DNA of 33,528 nt, from the NCBI GenBank assembly GCA_039801905.1, contig JBDRVQ010000019.1, forward strand, positions 1 to 33,528, read 5' to 3'. The translations under genes and the position numbers were made by a program. Origin of the DNA: a candidate division WOR-3 bacterium (lineage in GTDB: Bacteria; Hydrothermota; Tepidihabitantia; Tepidihabitantales; JBDRVQ01). This document shows, one piece after another, positions 1 through 25,543 of this stretch; the stretch's first letter is position 1, and every line of letters starts with the position of its first letter. The notes beneath the pieces were generated by a model. It saw only the letters and a list, made by a program, of their open reading frames with translations. It was not told where the DNA came from and ran no database searches.

Positions 1-64
1 AATTAGAGGGTAGGTTAAAAAATAAAATGTTGCATTTAGGCAAATTTTGTTGTAAAAAGGCAAA

Positions 65-826
65 TTAAAATTTAACTTTTCTTAAAAATAATCCTTGAGG
101 AGGGGCGGTGAGAAATGGCCGGTGGGGTTTGCCTTCTAAGGCGTTTATAATATCTTCCTTTGTAATCTTTCCCCGGGCATAATCAACTAATGCCCCAACA
201 ATCCTCCGCACCATCTTATAAAGAAACCTGTCCCCTTCAATTTTTATTATTAACTCCTTTCCTCTTTTCTTTATCTCTATCTCTTTCAATTCGCAAATCC
301 CTTTTCCTTCTCTTTTAACAAAAGGGGCAAAATCCCTTTTTCCCAAAAATAGATTTAGAGCCTCTCTCATTTTTTCTTCGTCAATTTTGTATTCTAACTC
401 CCAGACTCTCTCCCTTTTTAATGGGGAACGACCAAAGAAGATATGATATTCGTAGACTTTACTCTTCGCTGCCCGGCGCGCAGAAAAATCATCTCCTTTT
501 ATTCCAATCTTTTTCACATAGATATCCTGGGGCAAAAGGGAGTTTAATGCCTTCTTTAATCTCGCCAGGGGTAAAGCCTTCGGACATTGGAAGTTAACGA
601 AGAAAGAAAGGGCACTAACTCCCCGGTCCAATCGGCTAACACCGGTCGTTTTAATCTTTTTTTGAAAGATTATTGCTAAGACCTTTTCTAATTCTCCTTG
701 GACGGTTCTTTTCTTTGGTTGTTTCTGCCAGCCAAAAAACTCTTGGCCATCAAACTCTAATTCTAAAAGGAGATTAAAATGGTTGGCTATTTTTCGCCCT
801 GCTTCGCTTCCAAAGTCTTCTGGCAT
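65..826 (-). CDS. truA: tRNA pseudouridine synthase A (TruA)
   Basis: Predicted to isomerise uridines 38-40 in the tRNA anticodon stem to pseudouridine in the cytoplasm. The 253-residue length suits TruA. Visible family features are the N-terminal LELEFDGQEFFGWQ strand, the catalytic-Asp motif SRLDRGVSALSFFVNF (Asp near residue 67), KVYEYHIFF, FLYKMVRRIVGAL, and the C-terminal GLFLRKVKF. The usual motif is R-T-D-x-G-V-H-A; here it reads R-L-D-R-G-V-S-A, so Thr and His are replaced while the Asp remains. It is the last gene of the minus-strand lipoprotein-ileS-traR-truA run and its 5' end overlaps the end of the traR-like gene by about 40 nt. The first ~17 residues look non-conserved, so a later non-ATG start is possible. 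No clear Shine-Dalgarno (SD) is seen. Confidence 0.93.
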   Translation of the reverse strand: MPEDFGSEAGRKIANHFNLLLELEFDGQEFFGWQKQPKKRTVQGELEKVLAIIFQKKIKTTGVSRLDRGVSALSFFVNFQCPKALPLARLKKALNSLLPQDIYVKKIGIKGDDFSARRAAKSKVYEYHIFFGRSPLKRERVWELEYKIDEEKMREALNLFLGKRDFAPFVKREGKGICELKEIEIKKRGKELIIKIEGDRFLYKMVRRIVGALVDYARGKITKEDIINALEGKPHRPFLTAPPQGLFLRKVKF

Positions 827-10833: not shown

Positions 10834-10861
10834 TTGACAGAGTAAATTTTTTTTATAAAAT
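10834..10861 (+). promoter_or_regulatory. Sigma-70-type promoter of pgsB
   Basis: -35 TTGACA (10834-10839), 16-nt spacer, -10 TAAAAT (10856-10861), then CCACTT and the ATG at 10868. The -10-to-start layout nearly repeats that of the 5514 lipoprotein promoter (CCCACTT then ATG). Predicted leaderless mRNA. Confidence 0.78.
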
Positions 10862-10867: not shown

Positions 10868-12052
10868 ATGCTACTTCTCCTTCTTAGCCTTTTAGTTTTT
10901 ATTCTATTTGGCATATTGGAATATGTTCACCATAAGAAAAATCAGGAAGTGATTCCTATCCGAATTCAGGTTAACGGCACCAGAGGAAAATCTTCGGTTA
11001 CTCGACTCATCGCCGCCGGTTTGCGGGGTGGCGGTCTAAAAGTCATCTCTAAGACTACCGGCACCACCCCCCGCTTCCAGATTGATAATAAGACCGAATT
11101 CCCCATCCGACGCTTGGGTAAGGCAAACATTATTGAAGAGGTAAGAATTGTGCGCGAGGCGGCAAAGAGAAGACCGGATGCCTTAGTGATTGAATGTATG
11201 GCATTAGTCCCCCAATACCAGAAGATAGAGCGAGAGAAACTAATTAATCCCACAATCGGGGTGATTACCAATGTCCGGGCCGACCATTTGGATGTGATGG
11301 GACCAACGGTGTTAGATGTCGCCACATCCCTTGCCAATACCTGCCCCAAACAGGGAATTCTCTTCACTGCGGAGAGAGAGTTCTTTTTTGTATTTAAGAA
11401 TAGGGCAAAGGAATTAAAAAGTACGGCGGTCTTAATAAACGAAGATTTGGTGAGTGATGAAGAGATGGAAGGATTTTCCTATTGGGAGCATAAAGAAAAT
11501 GTGGCGTTGGCGTTAGCGGTTTGCGAATATCTCGGGATAAAAAGGGAAGATGCCCTCCGGGGGATGAAAAACTCCCTACCTGACCCCGGGGTTTTAAGGG
11601 TCTATCGGATAAAAGAACGGGGTAAAGAAATTAGTTTTTTTAATGCCTTGGCGGCTAATGACCCGGATTCTACGAAAATGATTGCGGAAAAGGTCTTTCT
11701 TAAGGCGCCGGGCTTAAAAATCCTTTTGGTCAATTTGCGAGCGGACCGCCAGGACCGATCCCGGCAATTGGGAGAGATGGTAAAGGAGATTAATTTTGAC
11801 TATATCCTTCTCACTGGGAAAAAGCCCCTCCCCTTTCTCAAAGCGGCAAAAAGAGTTGGCGTTAAAGAAGAGAAGATTCTAAACCTCACCGATTCTTCTC
11901 CGGCTTTCGTGTATGAGCAAATCTTTTCACTAATTAATTTGCCGGAGGCGGAAAGGGTGGTTATTTTAGCGGTAGGTAATATCGTGGGCTATGGTCAGGA
12001 GTTGGTGGATTTCTTCGCTCAAAAGTCCGTCCTTGTCGGAAAGTCCGCCTGA
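10868..12052 (+). CDS. pgsB: Poly-gamma-glutamate synthase ligase subunit PgsB/CapB
   Basis: Mur-ligase-like amide ligase that polymerises glutamate through gamma-carboxyl bonds at the inner membrane, together with PgsC. Its 394 residues match PgsB/CapB (about 393). An N-terminal membrane segment (residues 1-20) is followed by the ATP-binding loop VNGTRGKSSVTR (about 35-46), the TTGTTPRF segment, ECMALVPQYQ, VITNVRADHLDVMGPT and the C-terminal DPDST segment typical of the family. Predicted leaderless from its own promoter. The stop codon TGA lies at the centre of a TCCGCC-TGA-GGCGGA palindrome (12044-12058), so the last residues may be shaped by that element. pgsC follows 35 nt downstream. 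Substrate (D- or L-glutamate, or another amino acid) cannot be read from sequence. Confidence 0.93.
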   Translation: MLLLLLSLLVFILFGILEYVHHKKNQEVIPIRIQVNGTRGKSSVTRLIAAGLRGGGLKVISKTTGTTPRFQIDNKTEFPIRRLGKANIIEEVRIVREAAKRRPDALVIECMALVPQYQKIEREKLINPTIGVITNVRADHLDVMGPTVLDVATSLANTCPKQGILFTAEREFFFVFKNRAKELKSTAVLINEDLVSDEEMEGFSYWEHKENVALALAVCEYLGIKREDALRGMKNSLPDPGVLRVYRIKERGKEISFFNALAANDPDSTKMIAEKVFLKAPGLKILLVNLRADRQDRSRQLGEMVKEINFDYILLTGKKPLPFLKAAKRVGVKEEKILNLTDSSPAFVYEQIFSLINLPEAERVVILAVGNIVGYGQELVDFFAQKSVLVGKSA

Positions 12053-12058
12053 GGCGGA
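12044..12058. repeat. Palindromic element TCCGCC-TGA-GGCGGA
   Basis: Perfect 6+6 palindrome with a 3-nt centre. The central TGA is the stop codon of pgsB, and its right edge directly abuts the -24 element of the sigma-54-like site at 12059. Same family as the copies at 13552, 14868, 17314, 20045, 22494 and 31966. Confidence 0.9.
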
Positions 12059-12074
12059 TTGGCACGATTTTTGC
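12059..12074 (+). promoter_or_regulatory. Sigma-54 (RpoN)-type promoter before pgsC
   Basis: TTGGCACG-N4-TTGC, a full match to the -24/-12 consensus, with GG at 12061-12062 and GC at 12073-12074 exactly 10 nt apart. The predicted transcription start (about 12086) is 2 nt before the pgsC ATG. If used, the ten-gene operon from pgsC onward would have control separate from pgsB. No activator-binding palindrome was recognised in the preceding ~150 nt. Confidence 0.65.
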
Positions 12075-12087
12075 TTCTTCTCTTTCT

Positions 12088-12537
12088 ATGCTGATTGAAG
12101 GTGTTGGCTTAGGGATGTTTTTCAGTTTCCTCCTTTCTGAGACATTAGGTTTAGCGGCGGGTGGGATTGTTGTTCCGGGTTATTTTGCCTTAACTCTATC
12201 TGAGCCTTTCCGGGTCTTTTCTACTATTCTCTTAGGGATAGTTTGTGCCCTTATCGCCCAGATTGTCAGTTCTTTTATCATCCTTTACGGCCGGCGCCTA
12301 TTTCTCTTCTGCGTGGTCTTGGGTTATCTCTTGGGCTATCTGACAAAGATTTTCCCCGCCCTTCCCTTAAAGAGCGAAGTGGTATCCATTGAGACGATTG
12401 GTTATGTAATTCCCGGCCTTTTAGCCTATTGGATTAACCGCCAGGGTATTATTGAAACTCTATCAAGTCTAACCGTAGTGGCGATTTTGGTCCGATTCCT
12501 CTTGATTATCCTCTCTCAGGGAAGATTACCTTTATGA
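12088..12537 (+). CDS. pgsC: Poly-gamma-glutamate synthase membrane subunit PgsC/CapC
   Basis: Small polytopic inner-membrane protein, 149 residues as in PgsC/CapC. It partners PgsB in polymer synthesis and transfer across the membrane. It is almost wholly hydrophobic, with about four or five membrane segments and the family's N-terminal GLGMFFSFLLSETLGLAAGGIVVPGYFAL, here given by its key pieces: ESLGL-like SETLGLAAGG and VVPGY. The C-terminal YVIPGLLAYWINRQG is also characteristic. No SD is seen; a sigma-54-type start lies 2 nt upstream of the ATG. The stop overlaps the pgsW start (ATGA). Confidence 0.9.
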   Translation: MLIEGVGLGMFFSFLLSETLGLAAGGIVVPGYFALTLSEPFRVFSTILLGIVCALIAQIVSSFIILYGRRLFLFCVVLGYLLGYLTKIFPALPLKSEVVSIETIGYVIPGLLAYWINRQGIIETLSSLTVVAILVRFLLIILSQGRLPL

Positions 12538-13517
12538 AACGGAGATACGGCAAGGTTGGAAAAACTACTCTTTTAGCCTTTGCCCTTTTCTCAATTATTC
12601 TTTTACTCTTGGAGATGGAGACGAAGAAGGTGGTGAAGGCGAAGGATTATTCGGAGATGTTAGAAGCGGCGCGTTTGGCAGAGAGCGCCTTCTCCCTTAT
12701 CAAGGAAGAGAGGCTAAAGAGGGGAATTGAGTTGGATTCCATAAATGACCCATACCTCTCCGGTCTTATTGGCCGGCCTTCCTCTCCCATCACAATTGGT
12801 CATAAAAGTCTTGATGAAGTTCTTTTGACGACCTCCCCCAATTTTGCCGGAATTATCCTCTCCCTCCTAAAAAGAGAGGGTGTTAGAAAAGGGGATACCG
12901 TGTTAGTTGCCCTTGATGGCTCTTTCCCTGGTCTTTACTTCTCGTTTTTGGCAGCGGTTAAAATTTTAGGCTTAAACCCTTTTATTTTAGGCTCTTTAAC
13001 CTCTGCCCCTTGGGGTGCCAACCATCCCAGTTTTACCTATTTAGATATGGAAGGGATATTAAACTCTTCTCACCTCCTTCCTTTCCGAACCCAATATGTC
13101 CTATTAGGCGGATTCGGTCTTTCACCCTTTGCTCGGGAACTACTCTCCCAAGCGGCGGAGAGAAATGGCATTCCCCTTTTCACAGAAGAGAAGATCCCCC
13201 TTTATCCGAAAGGGAAAATTTTCTGTCTGATCGGCGATTTGCCGAATACCCCCTTAGAAAAAGAGATGAGAAAAGGAAAAGTTAAGGTCTTAGGCCTTTC
13301 CCAACCAAGTTCCCTATTAAAAAGGCTATCAATAAAGAGGGAAGACCTTTTCCAACCCCCAGGGAAAGGGAAAATCTACGAAGAAGAGGTCTATTCCCTT
13401 TTTTTTGCTTACCTCTTTGCGCTTTTAATTTTAATTGCCCTTTTTATTATCATCCGTTATGATATAGAATATTACCTCTTACCAAAGAGGGAGAAAATTG
13501 AGGAGGAGGCGATATGA
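12534..13517 (+). CDS. pgsW: Poly-gamma-glutamate system protein PgsW-like
   Basis: A 327-residue membrane-anchored protein with one N-terminal membrane segment (about residues 13-26), a ~250-residue domain facing out of the cytoplasm, and a C-terminal membrane segment (LFFAYLFALLILIALFIII, about 290-308). The middle segment, with SPNFAGIILSLLKREGVRKG, VALDGSFPGLYFS and TYLDMEGIL, matches my recollection of the family that accompanies PgsB and PgsC in some bacteria. Its biochemical role is not established. Position directly after pgsC, with overlapping stop and start codons, supports the call. It could replace PgsA/CapA, which is missing here; that is inference. Confidence 0.75.
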   Translation: MKRRYGKVGKTTLLAFALFSIILLLLEMETKKVVKAKDYSEMLEAARLAESAFSLIKEERLKRGIELDSINDPYLSGLIGRPSSPITIGHKSLDEVLLTTSPNFAGIILSLLKREGVRKGDTVLVALDGSFPGLYFSFLAAVKILGLNPFILGSLTSAPWGANHPSFTYLDMEGILNSSHLLPFRTQYVLLGGFGLSPFARELLSQAAERNGIPLFTEEKIPLYPKGKIFCLIGDLPNTPLEKEMRKGKVKVLGLSQPSSLLKRLSIKREDLFQPPGKGKIYEEEVYSLFFAYLFALLILIALFIIIRYDIEYYLLPKREKIEEEAI

Positions 13518-14287
13518 GCCGCGTGATCTGCCTTGCCTTTCTTATCTTCTTTCCGCCTGCGGCGGACTTTGGCGCTTCTGGGGAGATGGTGAAGTTAAGG
13601 AAGTTGAAGGTGGTGGAGGAAGAGTATAGAATTCTCACTAAGAAAAACCCGATTGAGATTACGGCTTTTGGACCGGCAAACTTAAAAATCAATACCCACA
13701 TCCTATACCCTGAGAATTTGGCAGAAGCGAAATACATATTAGTCTTGGAAACCGAGGAGGGGGAGAAGTTTTATTCCTTTAAGACGCCTGCCTCCCGGAC
13801 TAAAGACGAAAAGGGAAGGAGGTATGGTAAGTTGCGGGTGATTAATTTCCCCATCCCTTCGGGAACCCATCACCTCCGTCTCCACCTCCTTTCTTCTGAA
13901 AAAGAGACCTGCGCCGTGAAGATTATCTTGGAAAAGGTGAAATGGGAAGAAGTAAAACCAACACTTTATAAATCCTTGGTCACTCTCAAAAAGAATGGCA
14001 ATATTTTTTATTACGAAACCCCAATCCGGATCAACTTAAAAGGGGGAGAGTATAAGTTTTTGGCTCGGCTCTTCCAAGAAAAAGGTGAAGAGACAATGCG
14101 GGTTTTTATTAAGAAAGAGGGCGGAGAGATAATAGAGAAGGAGTTTTTAGTCGGTTTGAGTCCCATAGTTTCATCTTCTAAGGAAAATGTCTCCCGGCCC
14201 AAAGGTTTTTATCTTGAGTTACCATCCGGAGAGTACTCAATTGAAGTAAAAACCCGGGGGATGGTGAAGGTTTATGAGAAAAGGTAG
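13514..14287 (+). CDS. Secreted beta-rich protein of the pgs locus, unknown function
   Basis: 257 residues with no family I recognise. An N-terminal hydrophobic stretch (ICLAFLIFF) looks like a signal peptide. The rest is beta-strand rich and charged, and probably periplasmic: it holds two similar-looking beta-sandwich halves, the first with ILYPENLAEAKYILVLETEE and the second with ETPIRINLKGGEYKFLARLF and LPSGEYSIEVKTRG. The palindromic element 13552-13566 lies in frame right after the signal peptide and encodes Pro-Pro-Ala-Ala-Asp, so the cleavage region itself is built from repeat DNA. The start overlaps the pgsW stop (ATGA) and the end overlaps the barrel gene. Context suggests an export or tethering partner of the Pgs proteins; this is inference. 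Confidence 0.7.
   Translation: MSRVICLAFLIFFPPAADFGASGEMVKLRKLKVVEEEYRILTKKNPIEITAFGPANLKINTHILYPENLAEAKYILVLETEEGEKFYSFKTPASRTKDEKGRRYGKLRVINFPIPSGTHHLRLHLLSSEKETCAVKIILEKVKWEEVKPTLYKSLVTLKKNGNIFYYETPIRINLKGGEYKFLARLFQEKGEETMRVFIKKEGGEIIEKEFLVGLSPIVSSSKENVSRPKGFYLELPSGEYSIEVKTRGMVKVYEKR
13552..13566. repeat. Palindromic element TCCGCC-TGC-GGCGGA
   Basis: Perfect 6+6 palindrome in frame at the end of the signal-peptide region of the 13514 gene. It is followed by CTTT, so the flank GGCGGACTTT is the complement of the AAAGTCCGCC seen at 20042, i.e. this copy is in the opposite orientation. Confidence 0.88.
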
Positions 14288-15203
14288 TTTAGTGGGCTTT
14301 TTGGTCTTCTTCCTATTCGACTTTTACCTTTTCGGAGAAAAGATCTCCTTCTCCTTCCGTTACGACACCAACCCCTTCCTCCTCTCCGATTCCCAAAGAG
14401 ATGATTTCCTCTCTGGTAAAGAGATGGGGATTAAGACTTATGATGATTTACTAACCCGGATCTCTTTTCAACCCTTCTCTTGGGCAATTAAAGAGTATCG
14501 CTTCTCATTCACTTTCACGGGTAATTTTTACTACCAAAATCCGATTAAGAGTTATACCCAATTCCGAACTCAAGGTAAAAGGTTCTTTGGCAGAGTGAAC
14601 CGGTTCGGAGTTATAGAATACGAATTTTGCCCGTATTATCTAATCCGCCCCTTAAAAAATGGGAATCTAACTTACACTTCCCATTCCTGGGAAGGAGAAT
14701 TAACATCCAAGAAGACTTCTCTTCTCTTTTCCTTTTCCCTTAGGGATTATCCTGCCCTTTATAATGCGTACGATTCTAAGATTTATTCCTTAGGGCTAAG
14801 ATCCGCCTTTGGCGAGATAAGATCCGCCTTTGGCGAGATAAGAGGGGAATTTAAATTAAATTTCCTTTCCGCCGATGGCGGACTTTCCACCTCAGGCGAA
14901 AAACCGGATATCTCCTATCGGGGGATAATGGGAAAATTAGGTTATCGGAGCCGGATTGGTCTCGGCATTTCTTTAAGTTTAGAGAAGAGGGACTTTACGA
15001 CGAAAATTGACCCGACGCATAGGGGAAGAAAGGACCTCATCGGAGAAATGGAATTTTCTTTCTCCTTTCCCCTTAAAAAGAAGAGTTATCTCTCTTTTGG
15101 CTATCTCTATAAAAAGAGGAAGAGTAACTCCGAGAGCGAAGAGATTAGTGAGGAGAAGTCTTATGAGAAAAGCATCTTCTCGCTGGGGGTGAGATATGAA
15201 TAA
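14274..15203 (+). CDS. Predicted outer-membrane beta-barrel protein
   Basis: 309 residues with a hydrophobic N-terminal signal peptide (LVGFLVFFLFDFYLFG) followed by many amphipathic strands with alternating aromatic residues, such as KISFSFRYDTNPFLL, YRFSFTFTGNFYYQNP, VIEYEFCPYYLIRPL, KTSLLFSFSLRDY and SYLSFGYLYKK. The RYDTNPF segment after the signal peptide is common in outer-membrane barrels, and the last strand (SIFSLGVRYE) has a near-terminal aromatic as in Bam-inserted proteins. It lies in the pgs operon with both ends overlapping neighbours, so it is a candidate outer-membrane pore or anchor for the polymer. A 21-nt tandem duplication (14800-14841) encodes two copies of RSAFGEI, and a palindromic element lies at 14868. 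Specific family not recognised. Confidence 0.72.
   Translation: MRKGSLVGFLVFFLFDFYLFGEKISFSFRYDTNPFLLSDSQRDDFLSGKEMGIKTYDDLLTRISFQPFSWAIKEYRFSFTFTGNFYYQNPIKSYTQFRTQGKRFFGRVNRFGVIEYEFCPYYLIRPLKNGNLTYTSHSWEGELTSKKTSLLFSFSLRDYPALYNAYDSKIYSLGLRSAFGEIRSAFGEIRGEFKLNFLSADGGLSTSGEKPDISYRGIMGKLGYRSRIGLGISLSLEKRDFTTKIDPTHRGRKDLIGEMEFSFSFPLKKKSYLSFGYLYKKRKSNSESEEISEEKSYEKSIFSLGVRYE
14800..14841. repeat. Perfect 21-nt tandem duplication
   Basis: GATCCGCCTTTGGCGAGATAA occurs at 14800-14820 and again, without gap, at 14821-14841. It keeps frame and adds seven residues to the barrel protein. Each unit holds a degenerate copy of the palindrome (TCCGCC-TTT-GGCGAG). Confidence 0.95.
14868..14882. repeat. Palindromic element TCCGCC-GAT-GGCGGA
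   Basis: Perfect 6+6 palindrome in frame in the barrel gene (encodes Ser-Ala-Asp-Gly-Gly), followed by CTTT as at 13552 and by a decayed copy, CCACCTCAGGCGA, at about 14887-14899. It probably lies in a surface loop or turn. Confidence 0.85.
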
Positions 15204-16140
15204 AATTTTACTTCTTGGACTCTCCTTCCTTCTCTTCTGTGGCTATCCGAAACCAAAAGAAGAGATTTTAGTTAAAGTCTCAGAAGTGCGTTTAAGGGGT
15301 TATCCGAACGGGATGGCATTCCTACCCAATTCCGATTATCTCTTTGTCGCTTCTGGTCAAGGTGGCTTAGAGGTGATTGACTTAAAGGAGGAGAGGAAGG
15401 TGTTAGAGTATCTTGATTTTGAGAATACCTCTTGGGATGTGAAAATTTCTGACTCTTTCGCTTTTTTGGCTTACGGCAAGAAGGAGTTATTAATTCTTAA
15501 ATTCTCTTTACCGGATACCATCTATCCGATTGGGGTTAATGAGTATTCGGTCGCCTACGGTTATAGTTTGGCTTACGACTCTCTGAGGAAAAAGGTCTAT
15601 TGTGCGGCAAGGGAACAGTTTATCACCTTTGATGTCTCTGACCCCAATTACCCAATTGATATAAAGAAGGAGAACTTTCCCAGTGTCCGGGGGATCTTCT
15701 TTGACGGGGAGTATATCTATTTAGCATGTGAACAACTGGGGGTTATGATTTATTTGGCGACCGATTCCTTTCCGGTGAGAGTTAGTAGTTTTGACTCTTC
15801 TCTTAATGCAAGAGACTTGTGGGTGAAAGATACTTTTCTCTTTATCGCCGACGGCCGGGCAATAACCATTGCTTCAATTGCTGATAAGAAGAGGCCGCGG
15901 TTTTTAACTTCCATCCCGATCTCTGGTTATGCCCAGAAGATTACCGGATTTAATAATTATCTATTTTTAGCGGCAAATGAAGGAGGGTTATATCTTTATG
16001 ACCTATCTTCTTTTCCACCCGAAGAGAAGGCACATCTTAAAGAAGGCTATGTCCGGTGTGTCCTCTATCACCCGGAAAAAGAAATTTTATTAGTTGGGGA
16101 AAGGGATAAGGGGGTGATAATTTATGAGATTAAAGATTAA
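15196..16140 (+). CDS. Lipoprotein with LVIVD-type beta-propeller
   Basis: 314 residues with a lipoprotein signal peptide (MNKILLLGLSFLLFCGYP, Cys at 15). The mature part is a beta-propeller of LVIVD-like repeats: LFVASGQGGLEVIDLKEE, AFLAYGKKELLILKF, YIYLACEQLGVMIYLA, LFIADGRAITIASIAD, LFLAANEGGLYLYDLSS and LLVGERDKGVIIYEIKD. Such propellers are usually extracellular or periplasmic binding scaffolds; ligand unknown. It overlaps the barrel gene upstream by 8 nt and the C25-like gene downstream by 17 nt, so it is firmly inside the operon. No T9SS-type C-terminal domain is present; lipidation is the likely anchor. Confidence 0.8.
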   Translation: MNKILLLGLSFLLFCGYPKPKEEILVKVSEVRLRGYPNGMAFLPNSDYLFVASGQGGLEVIDLKEERKVLEYLDFENTSWDVKISDSFAFLAYGKKELLILKFSLPDTIYPIGVNEYSVAYGYSLAYDSLRKKVYCAAREQFITFDVSDPNYPIDIKKENFPSVRGIFFDGEYIYLACEQLGVMIYLATDSFPVRVSSFDSSLNARDLWVKDTFLFIADGRAITIASIADKKRPRFLTSIPISGYAQKITGFNNYLFLAANEGGLYLYDLSSFPPEEKAHLKEGYVRCVLYHPEKEILLVGERDKGVIIYEIKD

Positions 16141-19048
16141 ATCTCTTATAATAACTTTCATCTTCCAGATTCTTTCCGCCCAATTACTAGTGATCACTCC
16201 TGATGATTTCTATAATAATATCCAGCCCTTAGTCCAATGGAAAAAGGAGAAGGGTTATAATCTCTTTTTAAGAAAGATCTCCGAGATTGGCTCCACCGCT
16301 CCCCAAATTAAATCATATATCCAACACCTTGCCGATTCTACCAATCTCAGATATACCTTATTGGTTGGTGCCATAAATAAGATTCCTTCTTTTGACCTGC
16401 CCGGACCACCAACCGGAGTTACGGATTACTATTACGGCTGTCTCACTGATGAGTTAGTGGCAGATGTCCTGGTCGGTCGGCTCCCGGCGAGTAATACCAG
16501 TGAGTTGGATGTGATGGTGGCAAAGATTTTATCCTATGAGAAAAATCCTCCTACGGCGGATACTCTCTATTTTAAGCGTGCCTTAATGGTCGCGACCAGT
16601 TATGTTGGGGGAAGTGGCACACCCGCGGTTACCGCTTTGGAGACGAAACGTCTTTTAAGAAGGAATCTTCTGGCGAGTGGCTTTTTAATGGTGGATACCG
16701 TGTTCCATCCACCTTCTACTACTGGCGAATCAATCTCCTCGGCGGTGAATCGGGGGGTTTTGTATGTAAACGGTCGGGGCTGGGGAAATTCTGATGGCTG
16801 GGAATATCCGAGATTTGACCGGAATGATGTCGGAAACTTAAATAATGGCTTCAAACTGCCAGTGGTGACAAGTTTCTATTGCGCCACCGGTAATTTTGCT
16901 CGGAATCCTTGCTTCGGTGAAGTCTGGCTGAGGGCAGGCACACCTACTCAACCAAAAGGGGGAGTCCTTTTCTTTGGTCCTTCTTATACGACAACCTCTA
17001 CCCGCTGGAATAATTTCTTAGACTGTGCGGTATACGACGCCATATTCAATAAAGGCATCACCACCGCCGGGGAAGTCTTCCTCTATGCGAAGAAAGAACT
17101 TATAAGAAACTTTCCCCTGCCTTCTGATTCTTTAGATTTGAGAATCCATATCCAGTCTTATAATATCTTAGGAGACCCAACCCTCTCCCTCTGGCGGGGA
17201 GTTCCCAAAACCCTTTATCCAAATCATCCGCAAAATTTAGCGGTTGGCACCCAGAGGGTGAGGGTGAGTACTAACTTAGAATCCTGCCTTGTCTCCTTTT
17301 ATTCTACCGAAGGTCCGCCTCAGGCGGATTGGACCAATCGGGAAGGGGAAATTTACTTGGACTTAAATCTACCGCAACCGGGTTCTATCACCCTAACGAT
17401 TACAAAAAGGGACTACTTACCCTATCAGGTGAGCCTACCGGTGGAATTGAGAGAGTTTCATTGCGGGTTCTTTTCTTATGAGATAAGTTCCCCTTCTCCG
17501 GGAATACAGGAAATTTATTTAACGGTAAAAAATTATGGTACTAATCCCTTAAATGATGTCTCGGGTATTTTAAGAAGTGATGGGACAAAGGCGCAAGTCT
17601 TAGATTCTCTTCTCTCCTTTGGTGACATCCCACCCCAGGCCACTTCCCGTTTCGGTCCTTTAAGGGTCTTAATTAAAGAGACCGCAAAAGATAAAGAGAG
17701 TCTATCTTTCTCCCTTCTCTTAAATAGTGGAGGGAGATCTTTTAGTACTGGTTTTAAGATTGAGGTTCACTCAACTGCCTTTACTTTCTTATCGGCAAGG
17801 GTTAGTGATGGGAATAACCAGATTTTAGAACCCGGAGAGGATGTGAGTCTCTATCTCAAGATTAAGAATACCGGTCGGGAAGGGGGAGAAGTTTCCGGTG
17901 TTTTAAGGGCTTTAACCGATGCCGGTTTTTTTAGTGATTCCATTGCTAACTTTGGTTACTTCTCGCCGAATGAAGAGAAGGAAAATCTTGACCCCTTCAA
18001 TTTCTATCTCTCCACCGATTTCACCGGCAACCGGAAATTAAAATTCCGGCTCTTTCTCTATGTCAATAATAACTTAAAAGAGAGTTTAGATTTTCTCTTA
18101 TCTACCGGTCCTTATGAAGAGAGGAAACCTTACGGTCCTTCCCTCTATGGCTATTATGCCTATGAGAATAATGATAATCATCCCCAGAGGCCGAACTACT
18201 TTTGGCGGGAGATTGACCCGAATTATGGCGGCTCTGGTGAGAGATTAAATCTAACCGATGATGGAATAGTTACTCTCTCTCTCCCTTTCCCATTTCGCTA
18301 CTTCGGGATAGAGTTTAATCAAATCTCTGTGAGTGCCAATGGCTATTGTGTTCTCGGCGCATCCGAGTTTAAGAGTCCTTATAACTTTAACCTGCCTTCA
18401 CCCTATTCCCCAACAAACCTCTTGGCAATCTTCTGGGACGATTTCCGACCCGATACCCTTAATGCTTCCGGTGTTTATCACTACTACGATAGCGAAAATC
18501 ATATCTATATTATTGAATGGTCAAGGGTGCATCACATCCATGGTTTTCGGAATCGGATACTCGGGGAATTACAGACCTTTGAGATTTGCCTCTTTGACCC
18601 GCAATTTTATCCGACCCGCACCGGTGACGGCGAGATTATTTACCAGTATCTCTACTGCCAGAACGACGATTCATTTCCTGGTGATTGTCACAACTACGCG
18701 ACGGTGGGGATTCTCTCGCCCTCAGGAAGCGATTATCTCTTAGTCACCTTTGCCAACCAGTACCCGATTGGCATTTCTCCCTTAGGACCGGAAAGGGCGA
18801 TAAAATTTACCACCAACCCACCGGATACTTTCAGTCTCCTTAGGGAAAGAGAGCGGGAAGAGAAAAGGGTATTCCCAACAATTACGAAGATGAGAGACTT
18901 TCTTGATAAATACGGAAAAACGGAGAAGGAGATAAAAATTTACAATGCCTTGGGCAAAAGGGTCTTCCTTGAAGGGAAAAAGAGAATAGGTCCGGGGATT
19001 TATTACTTGATTATGGAGAAAAGGAGGATTAAAATAATTGTGCCTTAG
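16124..19048 (+). CDS. Secreted C25 (gingipain-like) protein with T9SS-type C-terminal domain
   Basis: 974 residues. Signal peptide ~1-19 (cleavage near LSA-Q). Residues ~20-370 are a C25-peptidase-like domain: LLVITPDDFYNNIQPLVQWK, DYYYGCL, VLVGRLPAS, the nucleophile region SFYCATGNF (C253) and NPCFGEVWLRAG. The catalytic-His position of the usual GHG motif reads G-R-G (R218 in NGRGWGNSDGW), so peptidase activity is doubtful. Then come an Ig-like segment (~375-450), a CARDB-like domain with SDGNNQILEPGEDV (~560), a beta domain with LPFPFRYFGIEF and ISVSANGYCVLG (~671-896), and a C-terminal sorting-like domain (IYNALGKRVF ... GPGIYYLIM ... KIIVP, ~938-974). Probably secreted through T9SS and attached at the surface. 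A palindromic element in frame at 17314 encodes Pro-Pro-Gln-Ala-Asp. Confidence 0.85.
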   Translation: MRLKIKSLIITFIFQILSAQLLVITPDDFYNNIQPLVQWKKEKGYNLFLRKISEIGSTAPQIKSYIQHLADSTNLRYTLLVGAINKIPSFDLPGPPTGVTDYYYGCLTDELVADVLVGRLPASNTSELDVMVAKILSYEKNPPTADTLYFKRALMVATSYVGGSGTPAVTALETKRLLRRNLLASGFLMVDTVFHPPSTTGESISSAVNRGVLYVNGRGWGNSDGWEYPRFDRNDVGNLNNGFKLPVVTSFYCATGNFARNPCFGEVWLRAGTPTQPKGGVLFFGPSYTTTSTRWNNFLDCAVYDAIFNKGITTAGEVFLYAKKELIRNFPLPSDSLDLRIHIQSYNILGDPTLSLWRGVPKTLYPNHPQNLAVGTQRVRVSTNLESCLVSFYSTEGPPQADWTNREGEIYLDLNLPQPGSITLTITKRDYLPYQVSLPVELREFHCGFFSYEISSPSPGIQEIYLTVKNYGTNPLNDVSGILRSDGTKAQVLDSLLSFGDIPPQATSRFGPLRVLIKETAKDKESLSFSLLLNSGGRSFSTGFKIEVHSTAFTFLSARVSDGNNQILEPGEDVSLYLKIKNTGREGGEVSGVLRALTDAGFFSDSIANFGYFSPNEEKENLDPFNFYLSTDFTGNRKLKFRLFLYVNNNLKESLDFLLSTGPYEERKPYGPSLYGYYAYENNDNHPQRPNYFWREIDPNYGGSGERLNLTDDGIVTLSLPFPFRYFGIEFNQISVSANGYCVLGASEFKSPYNFNLPSPYSPTNLLAIFWDDFRPDTLNASGVYHYYDSENHIYIIEWSRVHHIHGFRNRILGELQTFEICLFDPQFYPTRTGDGEIIYQYLYCQNDDSFPGDCHNYATVGILSPSGSDYLLVTFANQYPIGISPLGPERAIKFTTNPPDTFSLLREREREEKRVFPTITKMRDFLDKYGKTEKEIKIYNALGKRVFLEGKKRIGPGIYYLIMEKRRIKIIVP
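17314..17328. repeat. Palindromic element TCCGCC-TCA-GGCGGA
   Basis: Perfect 15-nt copy, identical to the one at 22494 but read in a different codon phase: here it gives G-P-P-Q-A-D, there S-A-S-G-G. It lies between strands of the Ig-like segment of the C25-like protein. Confidence 0.9.
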
Positions 19049-19056
19049 GAGGTTTT

Positions 19057-20205
19057 ATGAAATTAAAGATTTCTTTCGTCTTTTTACTTTTTGCCTTTAA
19101 CCTCTTATTCTCAGAGACGGTGTATCACGGTTGCGCCATTACCCCTTCTGGTTATTTCTACCTCGTGGAGAAGGAGTCAAGTAAGGTCTATGCCTCTTGG
19201 GATACCGGTCGGACCTGGCAGGATTTGGGCAGACCGAATATGACCGAGCGTTGGCTCTATGATATATTCTTCTTAAATGATACATTAGGGTGGATTGCCG
19301 CGGAAGGGGGCTTTATCTTTCATACGAGGGATGGCGGTTTTTCCTGGCGGCCTCAAAACCAGGGGGGAACAAAATTTGCCCAGAGGGTATTTATGTTAAA
19401 TGAAAGGTTTGGCTGGGTTGCTTCGGGTGAGGCAATCATCTTACGCACGACCAATGGTGGTGAAGAGTGGGAGCAAGTGATTCTACCCAATCCCCCATTT
19501 CCCGGGGATACGGTTGACTTTTATGGGGTCTATTTTATTGACTCTTTAACCGGCTGGGCAGTTGCCGGAAGATATCCGGTTGGCGATACCTTTATTAAGG
19601 GTCAGGGTTATATCGCAAAGACAATAGATGGTGGTCTTAACTGGTCCTTACTGAGAAAGGATACCATCTATGACTTCTTTGACTGCTATTTCGCAAACGA
19701 AAACGAAGGGTGGGTGGTTGGTGGTAATGACCGGACCCTTGAACCCTGTATCCTCCATACCACTGATGGTGGAGAAAATTGGGAAATCCAAAACCCTCCC
19801 ACTGGTTATTATCTCCGGGCGGTCCATTTTATTGGCCGGGAAGGTTGGGCGAGTGGGATGTTTGGTACAATCCTATATACTCCAAACGGCAGGAATTGGA
19901 CAAGTCAAGTAACTGGGGTTCCGGGGACGATTTTTGATATTGAGTTTCTGAATAGTGAGATTGGCATAGCGAGTGGCACAGATTTTGCTTTATGGACAAT
20001 AGATGGCGGTAGAAATTGGCATATGACCAATGTAGGAATAAAAGTCCGCCAAAAGGCGGATTCAAAGATAAGGGATTGGGGAGTTAGTGGTGATATTATT
20101 TATGATGCCAGCGGTCGGAAGGTGAAAGAGATGAGAAAGAAAGGGATATATTTTATCCGCCCCAGGCGAATTGACAAGTCAATAAAAAAAGTTATCTTAG
20201 AATAG
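19057..20205 (+). CDS. Secreted YCF48/BNR-type beta-propeller with T9SS-type C-terminal domain
   Basis: 382 residues with signal peptide MKLKISFVFLLFAFNLLFS. The mature part is a propeller of YCF48/sialidase-type repeats, each with an x-x-DGG-x-x-W Asp-box: HTRDGGFSW, RTTNGGEEW, KTIDGGLNW, HTTDGGENW, YTPNGRNW and WTIDGGRNW. Strands such as GWIAAEGGFIF, GWVASGEAI and GWVVGG lie between them. The C-terminus (DIIYDASGRKVKEM ... KKGIYFI ... KKVILE, ~346-382) fits the T9SS type-A sorting-domain pattern. A good SD (AGGAGG) sits 5 nt before the ATG. A palindromic element (20045) encodes the linker between propeller and sorting domain and a decayed copy (20156) lies inside the sorting domain. Role unknown; likely a surface binding scaffold. 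Confidence 0.85.
   Translation: MKLKISFVFLLFAFNLLFSETVYHGCAITPSGYFYLVEKESSKVYASWDTGRTWQDLGRPNMTERWLYDIFFLNDTLGWIAAEGGFIFHTRDGGFSWRPQNQGGTKFAQRVFMLNERFGWVASGEAIILRTTNGGEEWEQVILPNPPFPGDTVDFYGVYFIDSLTGWAVAGRYPVGDTFIKGQGYIAKTIDGGLNWSLLRKDTIYDFFDCYFANENEGWVVGGNDRTLEPCILHTTDGGENWEIQNPPTGYYLRAVHFIGREGWASGMFGTILYTPNGRNWTSQVTGVPGTIFDIEFLNSEIGIASGTDFALWTIDGGRNWHMTNVGIKVRQKADSKIRDWGVSGDIIYDASGRKVKEMRKKGIYFIRPRRIDKSIKKVILE
20045..20060. repeat. Palindromic element TCCGCC-AAAA-GGCGGA
   Basis: Perfect 6+6 palindrome with a 4-nt centre, in frame (V-R-Q-K-A-D) in the linker before the T9SS-type domain of the YCF48-like protein. The same 16-nt sequence recurs at 31966 inside holA. A decayed copy, TCCGCCCCAGGCGA, lies at 20156-20169. 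Confidence 0.9.
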
Positions 20206-20214
20206 GGAGTAGAT

Positions 20215-21693
20215 ATGCGTCTTCTCATAATCTTTTTAATCTCCTCAATTACCTTCGCCCAGGAAGGAGCCAGGTATTTAATCATCACCCATGACAACTT
20301 CTATAATGTTGTGCAAGATCTTGCCCAATGGAAAAACCAGAAAGGGATGAAGTGTAAAGTTGTTAGATTATCTGAGATTGGAAATAGTGCGAGTGCCATA
20401 AGAAACTATGTGATTAATGCCTATAACAACTGGGATCCGAAACCTGAATATCTACTTTTGGTTGGTGCACCGAGCCTTTTGACGAGTTATAGTTTTGGTC
20501 AGGGACCGCAAAGGCTTTATACCGATAGTTATTATGGTGATGTCTCGGGTGATTATCGGGCGGAGATTTGTTATGGGAGATTACCCTGTAAGACCGCGGC
20601 TCAGTGTAGTGTGATGGTGAAAAAGATTTTGACCTATGAGAAGACACCAACTTTGGTTGACTCCCTCTGGATAGTGAAAGGGGTTGGGATTGTGAATGAA
20701 GATGGTTCGGAAGATGATACGATATACTGGAATAATGTCCGGTTCGCCTGTCAACTGATGGGAAATGCGGGATTTGTTCAGGTTGATACCTTCTCCCGAT
20801 ATCGGGGGCATAATGCTAATGATGTGATCAATGCGGTAAATCAAGGCCGGGGAATTGTCTTATACCGGGGAAATGCCACCGGCAATTGGTATACACCATT
20901 TAATGTTAATGTCCAGTTAACCAATAATGTTAATATGTTACCAATCATCGCTTCTATCACCTGCCAGACTTTAACCTTATCACCTTACAATGAGTCAATG
21001 GTTGGCGAAGCCTGGTTAAAGGTCGGGACAACTACTTCTTTGAAGGGGGCAGTTGCCTTTTTTGGCAATACCCATTCCGGAACCAATCTGGCACCAATTA
21101 GGGGGGTTTGCACCCGGGGATTTTTCAGGAAGTTATTCTCTGATGAATACCAACTGGGTAAGGCGGTCTTAGCGGCAAAAGAGAGTATCTATGCCCGTTT
21201 CTATAACCAGTATGAGTATTACGGCTTCAATCTCCTTGGGGATCCGGAATTAAATGTCTTAACCGGTATCCCAAAGAAAATCTATGCTTCTTATCCGGAG
21301 ACGATTCCCTTAGGAAATCAGAATTTGACAATTAGGGTGGAGCGGGAAGGAAGAAGCCTTCCCAGTGCCTTAGTCTGCCTTTGGAAAGGGGAAGAGGTCT
21401 ATAAATATGGTTATACCAATTCTTCTGGTGAGATAACATTTAATATCAATCCGACAACCGAAGGGGAGATGCTCTTAACGGTAACCGGCAGAAACTCCAT
21501 CCCCTTTGAAGGAAGAGTCTTTTGTCTTAATCCTACAGGAATCCGAGAGATGGTCTCTTCTCCTTTTGTCAAGAAACCTTCCGGAAAAACCTTTTATGAC
21601 TTTTTGGGTCGGAAGAAAAATCCACCGCTTGCTCCGGGGATTTATTTTCTTAAAGACGGGACCCAATTTAAGAAGATAATCCTGACGGAATGA
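20215..21693 (+). CDS. Secreted C25-like protein, short paralogue, with T9SS-type C-terminal domain
   Basis: 492 residues. Signal peptide to about residue 15 (ITFA-QEG). Residues ~18-375 are C25-peptidase-like: RYLIITHDNFYNVVQDLAQW, YLLLVGAPSLL, EICYGRLPCK, ASITCQTLTL (C250 at the nucleophile position) and FFGNTHSGT. The position of the catalytic His reads Y-R-G-N-A (N220), so it is probably not an active peptidase of the usual kind. An Ig-like C-terminal part (~375-430) is followed by a T9SS-type sorting domain (FYDFLGRKKN ... LAPGIYFLKD ... KKIILTE). The N-terminal ~380 residues are nearly identical to those of the next gene, so the pair is a recent tandem duplication. A GGGAG SD precedes the ATG, and the stop overlaps the next start (ATGA). 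Confidence 0.85.
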   Translation: MRLLIIFLISSITFAQEGARYLIITHDNFYNVVQDLAQWKNQKGMKCKVVRLSEIGNSASAIRNYVINAYNNWDPKPEYLLLVGAPSLLTSYSFGQGPQRLYTDSYYGDVSGDYRAEICYGRLPCKTAAQCSVMVKKILTYEKTPTLVDSLWIVKGVGIVNEDGSEDDTIYWNNVRFACQLMGNAGFVQVDTFSRYRGHNANDVINAVNQGRGIVLYRGNATGNWYTPFNVNVQLTNNVNMLPIIASITCQTLTLSPYNESMVGEAWLKVGTTTSLKGAVAFFGNTHSGTNLAPIRGVCTRGFFRKLFSDEYQLGKAVLAAKESIYARFYNQYEYYGFNLLGDPELNVLTGIPKKIYASYPETIPLGNQNLTIRVEREGRSLPSALVCLWKGEEVYKYGYTNSSGEITFNINPTTEGEMLLTVTGRNSIPFEGRVFCLNPTGIREMVSSPFVKKPSGKTFYDFLGRKKNPPLAPGIYFLKDGTQFKKIILTE

Positions 21694-24600
21694 GAAAGGA
21701 AGGGCTTCTTCTCCTCTTCTCAATTCTCTTCGCCCAGGAAGGAGCCAGGTATTTAATCATTACCCATGACAACTTCTATAATATTGTGCAAGATCTTGCC
21801 CAATGGAAAAACCAGAAAGGGATGAAGTGTAAAGTTATTAGACTATCCGAGATTGGTTCTAATCCGGATTCAATCAGAAATTTTGTCATCTATGCCTATA
21901 ATAACTATAATCCCAGACCGGAATATCTACTTTTAGTTGGCGCACCAAGTCTCTTACCCAGTTATTACAATTCTACTTTAAGAATCTATACCGATAACTA
22001 CTATGCCAATGTCTCAGGAGACTACCGGGCGGAACTTTGTTATGGTCGCTTACCGGCGAAGACCGCTTCCCAGTGTAGCGTAATGGTGAAGAAGATTTTA
22101 TTCTATGAGAAGATACCGACATTGGCTGATTCTTTTTGGCTAGTGAAAGGGGTTGGGATTGTTAATGAAGATGGCTCTTCTGATGATACAATCTATTGGA
22201 ATAATGTCCGGTTTGCCTGTCAATTGATGGGCAGCGCGGGATTTGTTCAGGTTGATACCTTCTCCCGATTAAGGGGAGATTCAGCCGGTGATGTTATCAA
22301 TGCCGTAAATCAAGGTCGGGGAATTGTCTTATACCGGGGAAATGCCACCAATAACTGGTATACGCCATTTAATGTTAATGTCCAATTGACTAATAATGTT
22401 AATATGTTACCAATCATCGCCTCTATCACCTGCCAGACTTTAACCTTATCACCAAATGAGTCAATGGTTGGTGAAGCCTGGTTAAAGGTCGGGTCCGCCT
22501 CAGGCGGATTGAAAGGGGCGGTCGCCTTTTTCGGCAATACCCATTCCGGAACCAATCTGGCACCAATTAGGGGTGTTTGCACAAGGGGATTTTTTAGAAC
22601 TTTCTTCTCCGAAAATTACCAATTGGGTAAGGCGGTCTTAGCGGCAAAAGAGAGTATCTATGCCCGATTTTTTAATCAGGCAGAATACGAAGGATTTAAT
22701 CTTCTTGGTGACCCGGAATTAAATGTCTTAACTGGTATCCCAAAACCTTTAATTGTTGAATATCCCCAATCAATTCGGATTGGTGGTCAAAATATCACAA
22801 TCCGGGTGAGAAGGGAAAATTTACCTTTGGCTAATGCCCTAATCTGTTTAGTTAAATCTTCAGAAGTTTATGCCTATGGTTATACCAATTCCTCCGGCGA
22901 GATTACCCTTAACATCTCTCCCCAGACCCCAGGGGAGATGACCTTAACTTGTACGGGACGCAACTCCTTACCCTTTTTGGGCACAATCTGGGTCTTACCC
23001 CCTTCTGGTTCTCCTTATCCGGTCTATTATGATTTAAGACTTTATGACTTTCCACCAAACGGTAATAATAACGGCAAACCGAATCCCGGAGAAGAGATTT
23101 CCTTAAAAATCTTATTAAAAAATATCGGCGATGTACCAGCATATTATCTCCGGGGAACTTTAAGGACCAATGACCCAAACTGCCAAATTTTTGATTCAAG
23201 CGCGACCTATGGCATAATCCCACCGGACTCAATAAGGGAAAATGAAGGTTATTATCGCTTCCGACTTTCTCCGGATTTGCCTGATGGTTATACTCTACCA
23301 TTTTCCCTTTTCCTTACCGATACCTTAGGGAATAACTGGCAAACTAATTTCTCCATTTTCATCCAAAGGGGTATCCTCACTTTTACCAACTATTCAGTTC
23401 GGGACAGTGCACCGGGTGGTAATGGCAATGGCTTATTTGAACCGGGAGAATCCGGAAAACTTCTCTTCGGTTTAAGAAATACTGGCTCGGATGTTATCTC
23501 GGGTGCTTTTGGTCTCTTACGCTCTAAAACTCCGAAGGTGCGGGTGATTGATTCCTTAGCCTTCTTCGGTAACCTTTTGCCCGGAGAAGAGAAGTTTAAT
23601 AACCTTACCCCATTCTCTCTAACCTTTTCGCCGAGCCTTTTTGGAGGGCAAAATATCTATTTAGATTTTATCTACTTCGGCGATGGTTTTTCTCCCTATC
23701 GGGACTCGGTTGGGATTCTTTTAGTCTTAGGAGGGAGTTCTCCTTCCCAACCGATTGGACCTGACCCTTATGGCTATTACTCTTATGACAATACCGACCT
23801 CTCTTCGGGCCGGGCACCAAATTATAATTGGGTTGACATCCGTTCTTCTGGTCAACTTGTCCCCGGGGCAACCGAAGCGAATGATACCATCGTCTCTTTA
23901 AGACTACCCTTCACCTTCAAATACTACGGTCGGGAATATGATACCGTCTCAATTTCTTCCAATGGCTTTTTTGTTATGGGCCGTTCCACCTATTATTCCG
24001 GAAACAATCGCTCTATCCCCTCTCCTTCGGCGCCGGTGCGGGGGGTATTTCCCTTTTGGGATGACTTGGATACGAGGAGGCAGCAACAGATGGTGAACGG
24101 CGAAGTCTACCATTATTACGACCAGGCAAATAATAGATACATCATTATGTTCTGGGATTGCCCCCATTACCAGCGAAGGGATGTCCGGGAGACATTTGAG
24201 GCAATTTTATTTGACCCCCGGTATTATCAAACCCCAACCGGGGATGGTGAGATAATCTTCCAATATGCCGTAGTCTCCGATGCCCTCTCCTGCACGGTTG
24301 GTTGTCAAGACCACACAGAAACCCGAGGGATCTGCTATCTCTATAATAATACCTACCACCCGAATGCTGCTTCTTTGGTCTCTGGTCGGGCAATTAGATT
24401 AACCACCCTCCCACCGGTTGAGCAGAATACCCCTTGGCTCACCTTAGAGAGGGTTATCTTTGATGATACCCAAGGGGGCAATGGCAACGGGATATTAGAA
24501 CCAGGGGAGAGTGTTCTTCTCACTATCTTTTTAAGAAATCGGGGGCAGGCAAGTGTCAATAACCTGATTGGTAAGTTACGCCGGCAAGAAGAAGACTTTA

Positions 24601-25001
24601 TAGTTCTTGACTCAACCTGCAATTTTGGCACCGTAGGACCAAACCAGGAAGTGAATAACTCATCTTCTCCTTATCGCTTCCGTATTAGTTCTTTCCCTTC
24701 CGATACCGTACTCTCCTTCTTACTTCATCTTACCGGGACAAACTATCAAAACTCCCTCTCCTTCACCTTAGGGATGGGAAGTTTTACAGGAATTTCCCGG
24801 GATAAGGTCTTGAAGGCCTCAAGAAAGTTGAAGACCTTCTGGCGGGAGATCTCAGAAATTAAGAATGGGCTCCGCCGAGAGAAGTTGGCAATCTATAACT
24901 TCTCTGGTCAGAAGGTAGAAAAGATAGAAAGGGCGGGAATTTACTTCCTAAAAATTGGTGGCAAAACCGAAAAGATAATCTTCCTTCCTCCAGGGAGATG
25001 A
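21690..25001 (+). CDS. Secreted C25-like protein, long paralogue, multi-domain with T9SS-type C-terminal domain
   Basis: 1103 residues. Signal peptide ~1-15. A C25-like domain (~18-375) is close to that of the preceding gene, with C248 at the nucleophile position and N218 in place of the catalytic His. After an Ig-like segment come CARDB-like domains, each opening with an Asn/Gly-rich, possibly Ca-binding stretch: NGNNNGKPNPGEE (~457), GGNGNGLFEPGES (~575) and GGNGNGILEPGES (~929). Between the last two lies a beta domain with LPFTFKYYGREYDTVSISSN and TGDGEIIFQYAVV (~690-900), shared with the 16124 protein. The end (LAIYNFSGQKVEK ... AGIYFLKIGG ... EKIIFL) is T9SS-like. A palindromic element at 22494 is in frame. 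Likely a surface structural or adhesive protein. Confidence 0.85.
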   Translation: MRKEGLLLLFSILFAQEGARYLIITHDNFYNIVQDLAQWKNQKGMKCKVIRLSEIGSNPDSIRNFVIYAYNNYNPRPEYLLLVGAPSLLPSYYNSTLRIYTDNYYANVSGDYRAELCYGRLPAKTASQCSVMVKKILFYEKIPTLADSFWLVKGVGIVNEDGSSDDTIYWNNVRFACQLMGSAGFVQVDTFSRLRGDSAGDVINAVNQGRGIVLYRGNATNNWYTPFNVNVQLTNNVNMLPIIASITCQTLTLSPNESMVGEAWLKVGSASGGLKGAVAFFGNTHSGTNLAPIRGVCTRGFFRTFFSENYQLGKAVLAAKESIYARFFNQAEYEGFNLLGDPELNVLTGIPKPLIVEYPQSIRIGGQNITIRVRRENLPLANALICLVKSSEVYAYGYTNSSGEITLNISPQTPGEMTLTCTGRNSLPFLGTIWVLPPSGSPYPVYYDLRLYDFPPNGNNNGKPNPGEEISLKILLKNIGDVPAYYLRGTLRTNDPNCQIFDSSATYGIIPPDSIRENEGYYRFRLSPDLPDGYTLPFSLFLTDTLGNNWQTNFSIFIQRGILTFTNYSVRDSAPGGNGNGLFEPGESGKLLFGLRNTGSDVISGAFGLLRSKTPKVRVIDSLAFFGNLLPGEEKFNNLTPFSLTFSPSLFGGQNIYLDFIYFGDGFSPYRDSVGILLVLGGSSPSQPIGPDPYGYYSYDNTDLSSGRAPNYNWVDIRSSGQLVPGATEANDTIVSLRLPFTFKYYGREYDTVSISSNGFFVMGRSTYYSGNNRSIPSPSAPVRGVFPFWDDLDTRRQQQMVNGEVYHYYDQANNRYIIMFWDCPHYQRRDVRETFEAILFDPRYYQTPTGDGEIIFQYAVVSDALSCTVGCQDHTETRGICYLYNNTYHPNAASLVSGRAIRLTTLPPVEQNTPWLTLERVIFDDTQGGNGNGILEPGESVLLTIFLRNRGQASVNNLIGKLRRQEEDFIVLDSTCNFGTVGPNQEVNNSSSPYRFRISSFPSDTVLSFLLHLTGTNYQNSLSFTLGMGSFTGISRDKVLKASRKLKTFWREISEIKNGLRREKLAIYNFSGQKVEKIERAGIYFLKIGGKTEKIIFLPPGR
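22494..22508. repeat. Palindromic element TCCGCC-TCA-GGCGGA
   Basis: Perfect copy encoding S-A-S-G-G inside the C25 domain. The tandem paralogue has ACAACTACTTCT at the matching place (about 21030), 3 nt shorter, so this copy replaced or inserted into a variable turn after or around the duplication. Confidence 0.92.
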
Positions 25002-25543
25002 AATTCCTCTTTGCCAATTTAGAAATTGAATGCCAAGAGGGGGATATTACTAAGCAGCCGGATATGACGGCGATTGTCAACGCCGCCAATGCCTGGCTCC
25101 GGTCGGGCGGCGGCGTAGCCGGAGCGATCCATCGGGTAGCAGGACCAGAATTGGCAGAAGAGTGTAGAAAATTTGCTCCGCTAAAGACCGGAGAGGCGGT
25201 CCTCACCAAGGGTTATAAACTACCGAATCGTTATGTGATTCATTGCCTTGGTCCGGTCTACGGCCGGGATAAGCCGGAGGATAAACTTCTGGCCGCTTGT
25301 TACGAAAACGCCCTGAGATTAGCGGAAGAATATAAAATTGACTCTCTTGCCTTTCCTGCTATCGCCACAGGTTATTTTGGCTATCCGATAGAAGAGGCAG
25401 CAGAGGTGGCGATTAAGACCATCTTAAAAATGGCACCCCAATTAAAATCCGTTAAGAAAATCCGTTTCGTCCTCTTCACCAAAAAAGACTTAGAAGTTTA
25501 CCAAAAGGTCTTAAATAATTTACTTAATCCAAAACGATATTGA
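24998..25543 (+). CDS. Macro-domain protein (ADP-ribose-binding / possible ADP-ribosyl hydrolase)
   Basis: 181-residue single macro domain. Visible motifs are AIVNAANAWLRSGGGVAGAIHRVAGPEL (key pieces NAAN and GGGVAGAIH), YVIHCLGPVYG and the diphosphate-loop motif FPAIATGYFGYP. Members bind ADP-ribose and many remove ADP-ribose from proteins, nucleic acids or O-acetyl-ADP-ribose. MacroD-type hydrolases usually have Asp in GGGVDGAIH; here it is Ala, so the mechanism may differ or the protein may be mainly a binder. It starts inside the stop of the long C25-like gene (ATGA), making it the last gene of the operon, and its end overlaps the leuS end by 20 nt in convergent orientation. A cytoplasmic protein in a secretion operon is unexpected. 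No toxin-like ADP-ribosyltransferase is seen nearby. Confidence 0.9.
   Translation: MKFLFANLEIECQEGDITKQPDMTAIVNAANAWLRSGGGVAGAIHRVAGPELAEECRKFAPLKTGEAVLTKGYKLPNRYVIHCLGPVYGRDKPEDKLLAACYENALRLAEEYKIDSLAFPAIATGYFGYPIEEAAEVAIKTILKMAPQLKSVKKIRFVLFTKKDLEVYQKVLNNLLNPKRY

Follow-up and report, generated by a model that had tools for sequence, protein, structure and literature searches.

The short spacer between pgsB and pgsC of a candidate division WOR-3 bacterium holds what is probably a functional sigma-54 promoter, from which pgsC would be transcribed as a near-leaderless mRNA. The element, TGGCACGATTTTTGCT at positions 12060-12075 of the forward strand, is an exact match to TGGCACG-N4-TTGCW, the consensus of the sigma-54 -24/-12 promoters, and just 12 nt separate its end from the pgsC ATG. 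Positions are those of the window, the whole 33,528-nucleotide stretch that was analyzed, which is contig C19 of a genome of 1,695,716 bases (58 contigs, 96.6% complete). Sequence comparison makes it probable that the promoter is specific to the lineage and has come to stand ahead of a conserved surface-polymer operon. The best named relatives of the PgsB protein are from candidate division WOR-3 bacteria, with identity of up to 55%. The first 246 bases examined of the start of contig C10 (L020) match window positions 246-1 at 99%, and by this match C10 and C19 probably overlap or adjoin at window 1-246.

pgsB (10868-12052, forward strand; TIGR04012 PgsB, E 8.9e-128; aligned with nine relatives) is preceded by a sigma-70 type promoter of the leaderless type, TTGACA-16-TAAAAT at 10834-10861 on the same strand, ending 6 nt before its ATG. 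pgsC (12088-12537, forward strand; TIGR04011 PgsC, E 6.1e-35) would be the first gene of the putative sigma-54 transcript; in an alignment with nine relatives its ATG at 12088 matches their N-termini, M standing at that position in eight of them. Nine further tightly packed genes (12534-25543, forward strand), delimited by the ORF list and profile matches and conserved in order in relatives, bring the co-directional, tightly packed ORFs from 12088 to 25543 to ten. After pgsC come a PgsW-type gene (TIGR04332), three uncharacterized ORFs of 257, 309 and 314 aa, a C25 peptidase gene, a YCF48-type gene, a further C25 peptidase gene, a gene for a C25-type protein of 1103 aa and a macro domain gene. 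The original prediction had the element split pgsB, with its sigma-70 promoter, from a ten-gene operon; the pgsB promoter and the ten ORFs are present, and the arrangement suggests that the two parts may be separately transcribed. No terminator was found between pgsB and pgsC, the predicted RNA fold of 12010-12100 was no better than that of shuffled sequences (z -0.70), and Rfam gave no match in the window and two loci. The 1.7-Mb genome G000 has 16 Peptidase_C25 matches, among which two are weak and one falls short of the cut-off.

From left to right the junction consists of a palindrome, TCCGCCTGAGGCGGA (12044-12058), a T at 12059, the TGGCACGATTTTTGCT element, then TCTTCTCTTTCT and the ATG at 12088, so that the 35-nt spacer holds the whole element. 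Ten bases lie between the GG at 12061-12062 and the GC at 12073-12074, and counting the C of the GC as -12 places the predicted +1 at 12086, 2 nt 5′ of the pgsC ATG. Both the invariant GG-N10-GC spacing and the start 2 nt before pgsC had been claimed from the sequence, and the counts confirm them. A sigma-54 promoter matrix, that of Barrios et al. 1999, is among the sources cited in PMC5243855.

The 12060-12075 site is the only match without mismatch to TGGCACGNNNNTTGCW in the window, where five matches with at most two mismatches compare with 1.59 expected. Genome-wide there are seven exact matches and none to the reversed motif, where a first-order Markov model trained on 397,224 genomic bases predicts 0.064. 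A co-directional gene starts within about 70 nt of five of the seven, the exceptions being on contigs C26 and C29. Those on C26 and C27 sit on copies of a dispersed repeat, so the number of independent exact sites is nearer five to six than seven; with two of seven facing no co-directional gene and two of seven repeat-borne, an exact match is no guarantee of a promoter. Thirteen further sites in the genome have one mismatch, seven of them intergenic and six inside ORFs. A one-mismatch sigma-54-like site in the window, TGGCACATTCTTTGCT at 28210-28225, is intergenic and precedes a 286-aa ORF at 28325. Over 27 other genomes of the order the excess of the exact motif is less clear, 32 occurrences against 14 of the reversed motif in a hand tally.

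The dispersed repeat consists of 12-base units, degenerate in sequence, and its end, ..CGGAAATACCCCCCAATTTCTGACACTAAATTTTTAG, is conserved; it has copies in L109 near 9125, L110 (13323), L111 (2455), L112 (15494), L113 (2747) and at five more places. Of the ten copies counted in 397 kb, five are accompanied by a sigma-54-like site, 25-28 nt past the conserved end, and the motif can thus travel in the genome. The pgsC site was considered as a remnant of such a repeat and this was rejected, as the site gave no hit to the repeat.

The palindrome next to the site, for which no strand is assigned and a promoter role is only putative, is one copy of a repeat scattered in the operon, and the pgsB stop codon lies inside it. 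That a palindrome directly abuts the left side of the motif, as the original prediction had it, is correct as to adjacency; a specific link did not stand, since small GC-rich palindromes of its family recur at scattered places in the operon, and the palindrome probably has no specific connection with the promoter. Palindromes of the form CCGCC-N-GGCGG occur in the window at 12045, 13553, 14869, 17315, 20046, 22495, 28258 and 31967, that is eight in the 33.5-kb contig versus seven in 364 kb of the sampled rest. Strict copies number five genome-wide, with four at 12042-20060, and six palindromes are distributed one per gene, in different frames, across the run from pgsB to the C25 genes. A role as operator or upstream activator site was rejected because perfect or near-perfect copies occur at several other points of the gene run, in all frames (worked out by hand from ORF coordinates) and mostly inside coding sequence, and because of its position: an enhancer site is not expected directly against the -24 box.

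The sigma-54 machinery for which the original prediction had said to look is encoded in the genome. A profile search finds RpoN (E 4.7e-47; region C13:38675-39127), whose RpoN-box region reads CARRTVVKYREELNIP and includes an intact stretch, CARRTVVKYRE, of the type that we take to be the RpoN box. Seven proteins match PF00158; five are enhancer-binding proteins of the Sigma54_activat family (E<1e-49) and two, with weak matches, were read as Clp-type ATPases. The GAFTGA loop reads GAFTGA in the activators on C11 and C1 (the latter protein being divergent), GSFTGA in that on C13, GAFTDA in that on C10 and GTATGV in that on C12, so that the C12 protein may make no ordinary contact with sigma-54. 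A search of 61 genomes, the window genome among them, gave rpoN in 57; it was not matched in G010 and G012, of one genus and one of them 95% complete, a possible loss of the sigma-54 system. With the exact consensus, the sigma factor, the activators, and an orientation and placement that fit driving pgsC and the genes downstream, the claim of a sigma-54-type promoter is supported as a prediction.

Where an activator would bind is less readily seen. The exact sites of C11, C15 and C29 (L111, L115, L116) each have a palindrome, AAGTYATTG-N-AATAACTTA, at exactly 14 nt upstream; it was rejected as the activator site of the group, as it is also present at many places with no sigma-54 site and is absent at pgsC. 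Neither the search for a palindrome shared with the other exact sites nor that for inverted repeats recognized an upstream activator site at pgsC, the lone candidate inverted repeat, at 11870-11900, being weak and by estimate at about chance level.

The comparison drew on 60 relatives, none of the same genus or family, those with pgsC being order- and class-level relatives. PF14102 is present in 41 of the 61 genomes, the window genome included, and the junction was read in all 40 others. The pgsB stop codon overlaps or touches the pgsC start in 33 of the 40, a gap of 1-25 nt parts them in five, and two have larger gaps (88 nt in G051 and 261 nt in G004). A Shine-Dalgarno-like sequence precedes pgsC in 36 of the 40 (32 by stricter patterns), whereas none of the patterns is found in the sequence upstream of pgsC in the window, TTTGCTTCTTCTCTT. 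As a 35-nt gap lacking a Shine-Dalgarno sequence replaces the overlap and Shine-Dalgarno sequence that are usual in relatives, the lineage of the window genome appears to have lost the pgsB-pgsC coupling.

No sigma-54 site was found within 60 nt before pgsC in any of the 40 order- and class-level relatives, the best candidates having four to seven mismatches. G004 alone has a two-mismatch site, 118 nt upstream of pgsC, a weak case for independent occurrence given 186 sites with at most two mismatches in that genome against 77 for reversed controls; the comparison with relatives, also proposed originally, thus gave no comparable site in 39 of the 40 genomes. Function is favored despite this non-conservation because the sigma-54 site with its adjacent ATG is the sole recognizable start signal left for pgsC. 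Downstream, the order PgsB-C-W-...-C25a-YCF48-C25c is conserved in six relatives (G002, G005, G007, G008, G010 and G011) and partial in G013 and G004, whose stretches end early; C25 genes beside the pgs genes were not seen in the stretches of G003 (a short one), G006, G009 and G020. In G007 another C25 peptidase gene has an exact sigma-54 site (L225, C37:25143-25158) 93 nt upstream, with a TTGACA-type promoter between, and so there may be an independent link of sigma-54 with C25 peptidases in one relative.

Leaderless starts seem to be ordinary in this genome. The gene list for 397,224 bases gives 137 genes with 50 nt or more of free upstream DNA, 96 with no Shine-Dalgarno-like sequence and 41 with one. 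A TATAAT-like hexamer starting at -14 to -9 from the ATG accompanies 38 of the 96 versus none of the 41, and most of the hexamer-bearing genes have TTGACA further upstream. Examples of the sigma-70 leaderless type in the window are the genes at 10868 and 10300, and in such examples the hexamer ends 3-8 nt before the ATG. The gene lists used for this count, for the Markov expectation and for the N-terminus test below have crude starts, the first ATG within 90 nt. Judged by these upstream sequences, leaderless messages from sigma-70 promoters are one of the principal modes of this genome, and the pgsB promoter fits the pattern. The original prediction had regarded a near-leaderless start at a chance match as a strange coincidence. 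It was right in that the motif is very unlikely to be there by chance; the start itself is not strange, because this genome has many sigma-70 leaderless genes, and sigma-54 sites with an ATG 12-15 nt downstream are met repeatedly in it and in relatives, above all at the 'CPFLEE' gene described below.

At three of the seven exact sites the motif is followed after 12, 13 or 14 nt by an ATG, and the ORFs that begin there are 149, 361 and 370 aa long. The 'CPFLEE' gene of C11 (C11:6891-7220; L009/L282) encodes a Cys-rich protein that begins MKKRCPFLEE and has homologs in 15 of the 61 genomes, the window genome included. Immediately before the gene, 13 of the 15 genomes have a sigma-54 site with zero to three mismatches, the best in G029 and G020 having four to five. 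The distance from motif to ATG is 12-15 nt in seven of the 13 (G000, G001, G014, G051, G060 with three mismatches, G035 and G033), and 16-26 nt with a Shine-Dalgarno-like sequence before the start in G050, G053, G055, G052, G043 and G057, so the spacing is of the leaderless kind in some families and leaves room for a Shine-Dalgarno leader in others. The Kelch gene of C13 and its homolog in G007 (35% identity) both have 14 nt.

An exact site followed at 12-15 nt by ATG occurs 34 times in 65 genomes, against zero for the reversed control; 13 of 30 such loci examined open an ORF of at least 60 aa or run off the locus, and 17 open no long ORF. At class level exact sites more commonly have their ATG 20-26 nt further on, behind a Shine-Dalgarno leader, and by these distances the near-leaderless sigma-54 geometry is not general across the class. 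An enrichment for surface proteins among putative sigma-54 targets was also considered: hydrophobic N-termini are present in seven of 11 targets versus 127 of 308, which is not significant (p 0.12) by a rough hydrophobicity criterion, one that overlooks two evident signal peptides; the gene list for this test lacks pgsC.

Several other readings of the site were weighed. A chance match in the 35-nt spacer would be in keeping with the shortness of the motif, its restriction to one lineage and the two exact sites of seven that face no co-directional gene, and yet seven exact sites where 0.064 are expected, with none for the reversed control, make it very unlikely. The motif could instead be non-functional, having come, palindrome and motif together, with the short insertion or rearrangement that parted pgsB from pgsC or being the relic of a dispersed element, with pgsC translated from the pgsB transcript. 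The lineage-specificity of the site, the repeated palindrome abutting it, the failure to find an activator site upstream and the mobility of sigma-54-like sites with five of ten copies of the dispersed repeat all point that way. Against it, the core of that repeat is absent at pgsC, a pgsC on a pgsB transcript would have no Shine-Dalgarno sequence, and the site is intact with leaderless-type spacing like that of the conserved C11 site; we consider it unlikely, though the most serious of the alternatives.

Sigma-54 holoenzyme could also bind the site mainly so as to block read-through from pgsB, or be poised there and rarely opened. pgsB having its own promoter, and no enhancer site being recognized, would suit this, but an ATG 12 nt downstream with no Shine-Dalgarno sequence fits the production of RNA, which goes beyond binding alone, and little weight is given to the idea. 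A functional promoter is the preferred reading. The motif, its spacing, the sigma factor gene, the activator genes, the missing Shine-Dalgarno sequence and the recurrence of the geometry elsewhere can be read from the DNA; transcription, the choice of activator and its binding place, an mRNA covering the whole run and the physiological role are what we infer. Sigma-54 RNA polymerase would bind 12060-12075 as a closed complex, which one of the enhancer-binding proteins of the cell would open by ATP hydrolysis. RNA would begin at about 12086-12088, leaving the pgsC AUG 0-2 nt from the 5′ end and its translation leaderless or nearly so. The supply of pgsC and of the nine genes that follow would then be gated by an activator, while pgsB would keep its own sigma-70 leaderless promoter.

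The site resembles other sigma-54 promoters in its exact consensus, its GG-N10-GC spacing, the presence of rpoN and activators, and its location ahead of a co-directional surface-polymer gene. Unlike typical ones it has a predicted leader of 2 nt with no Shine-Dalgarno sequence, no recognized activator site, and a position inside a gene run that relatives conserve without it. Leaderless genes are described in Deinococcus-Thermus, with a -10 element next to the start codon (PMC12340547), and in Leptospira, with start sites 0-10 nt from the start codon (PMC5243855). The pgsC promoter likewise ends a few nt before the ATG in the absence of a Shine-Dalgarno sequence; it differs in being of the sigma-54 type, and its leaderless message would therefore be activator-gated. 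Sigma-54 has been presented as a controller of the bacterial exterior, a tendency across genomes (Francke et al. 2011, PMC3162934), and the genes after the pgsC site, for a surface polymer and predicted surface peptidases, suit that picture, though unlike that tendency the enrichment in the small set here is not significant. Titles and abstract openings of the literature searched gave no sigma-54-driven leaderless messages, of which survey supplements may hold cases, nothing on leaderless genes in WOR-3, and nothing relevant joining poly-gamma-glutamate and sigma54. Each of the two, sigma-54 promoter and leaderless start, is familiar by itself; what deserves pursuit is that they occur together, and do so repeatedly in WOR-3.

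Because a sigma-54 promoter needs an activator in order to fire, one from which a leaderless mRNA starts would make expression all-or-none, and no regulatory RNA leader would stand between the switch and the protein. The strictest bacterial control of transcription would thereby be coupled to translation that dispenses with a Shine-Dalgarno sequence. If the start is mapped as predicted, it would show how a short spacer can break up and rewire, in a single lineage, an operon that is conserved throughout an order, and it would open a way into the gene control of a bacterial group for which we know of no cultivated genetics. A tentative proposal, plausible but short of likely, is that start-codon-adjacent sigma-54 promoters of WOR-3 form a regular class of activator-gated leaderless mRNAs, of which CPFLEE (seven of 13 at 12-15 nt) and Kelch (two genomes, 14 nt) would be established members and pgsC a recent recruit after the operon lost its pgsB coupling. 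Since the CPFLEE site is conserved, the question can be put to the test in many genomes.
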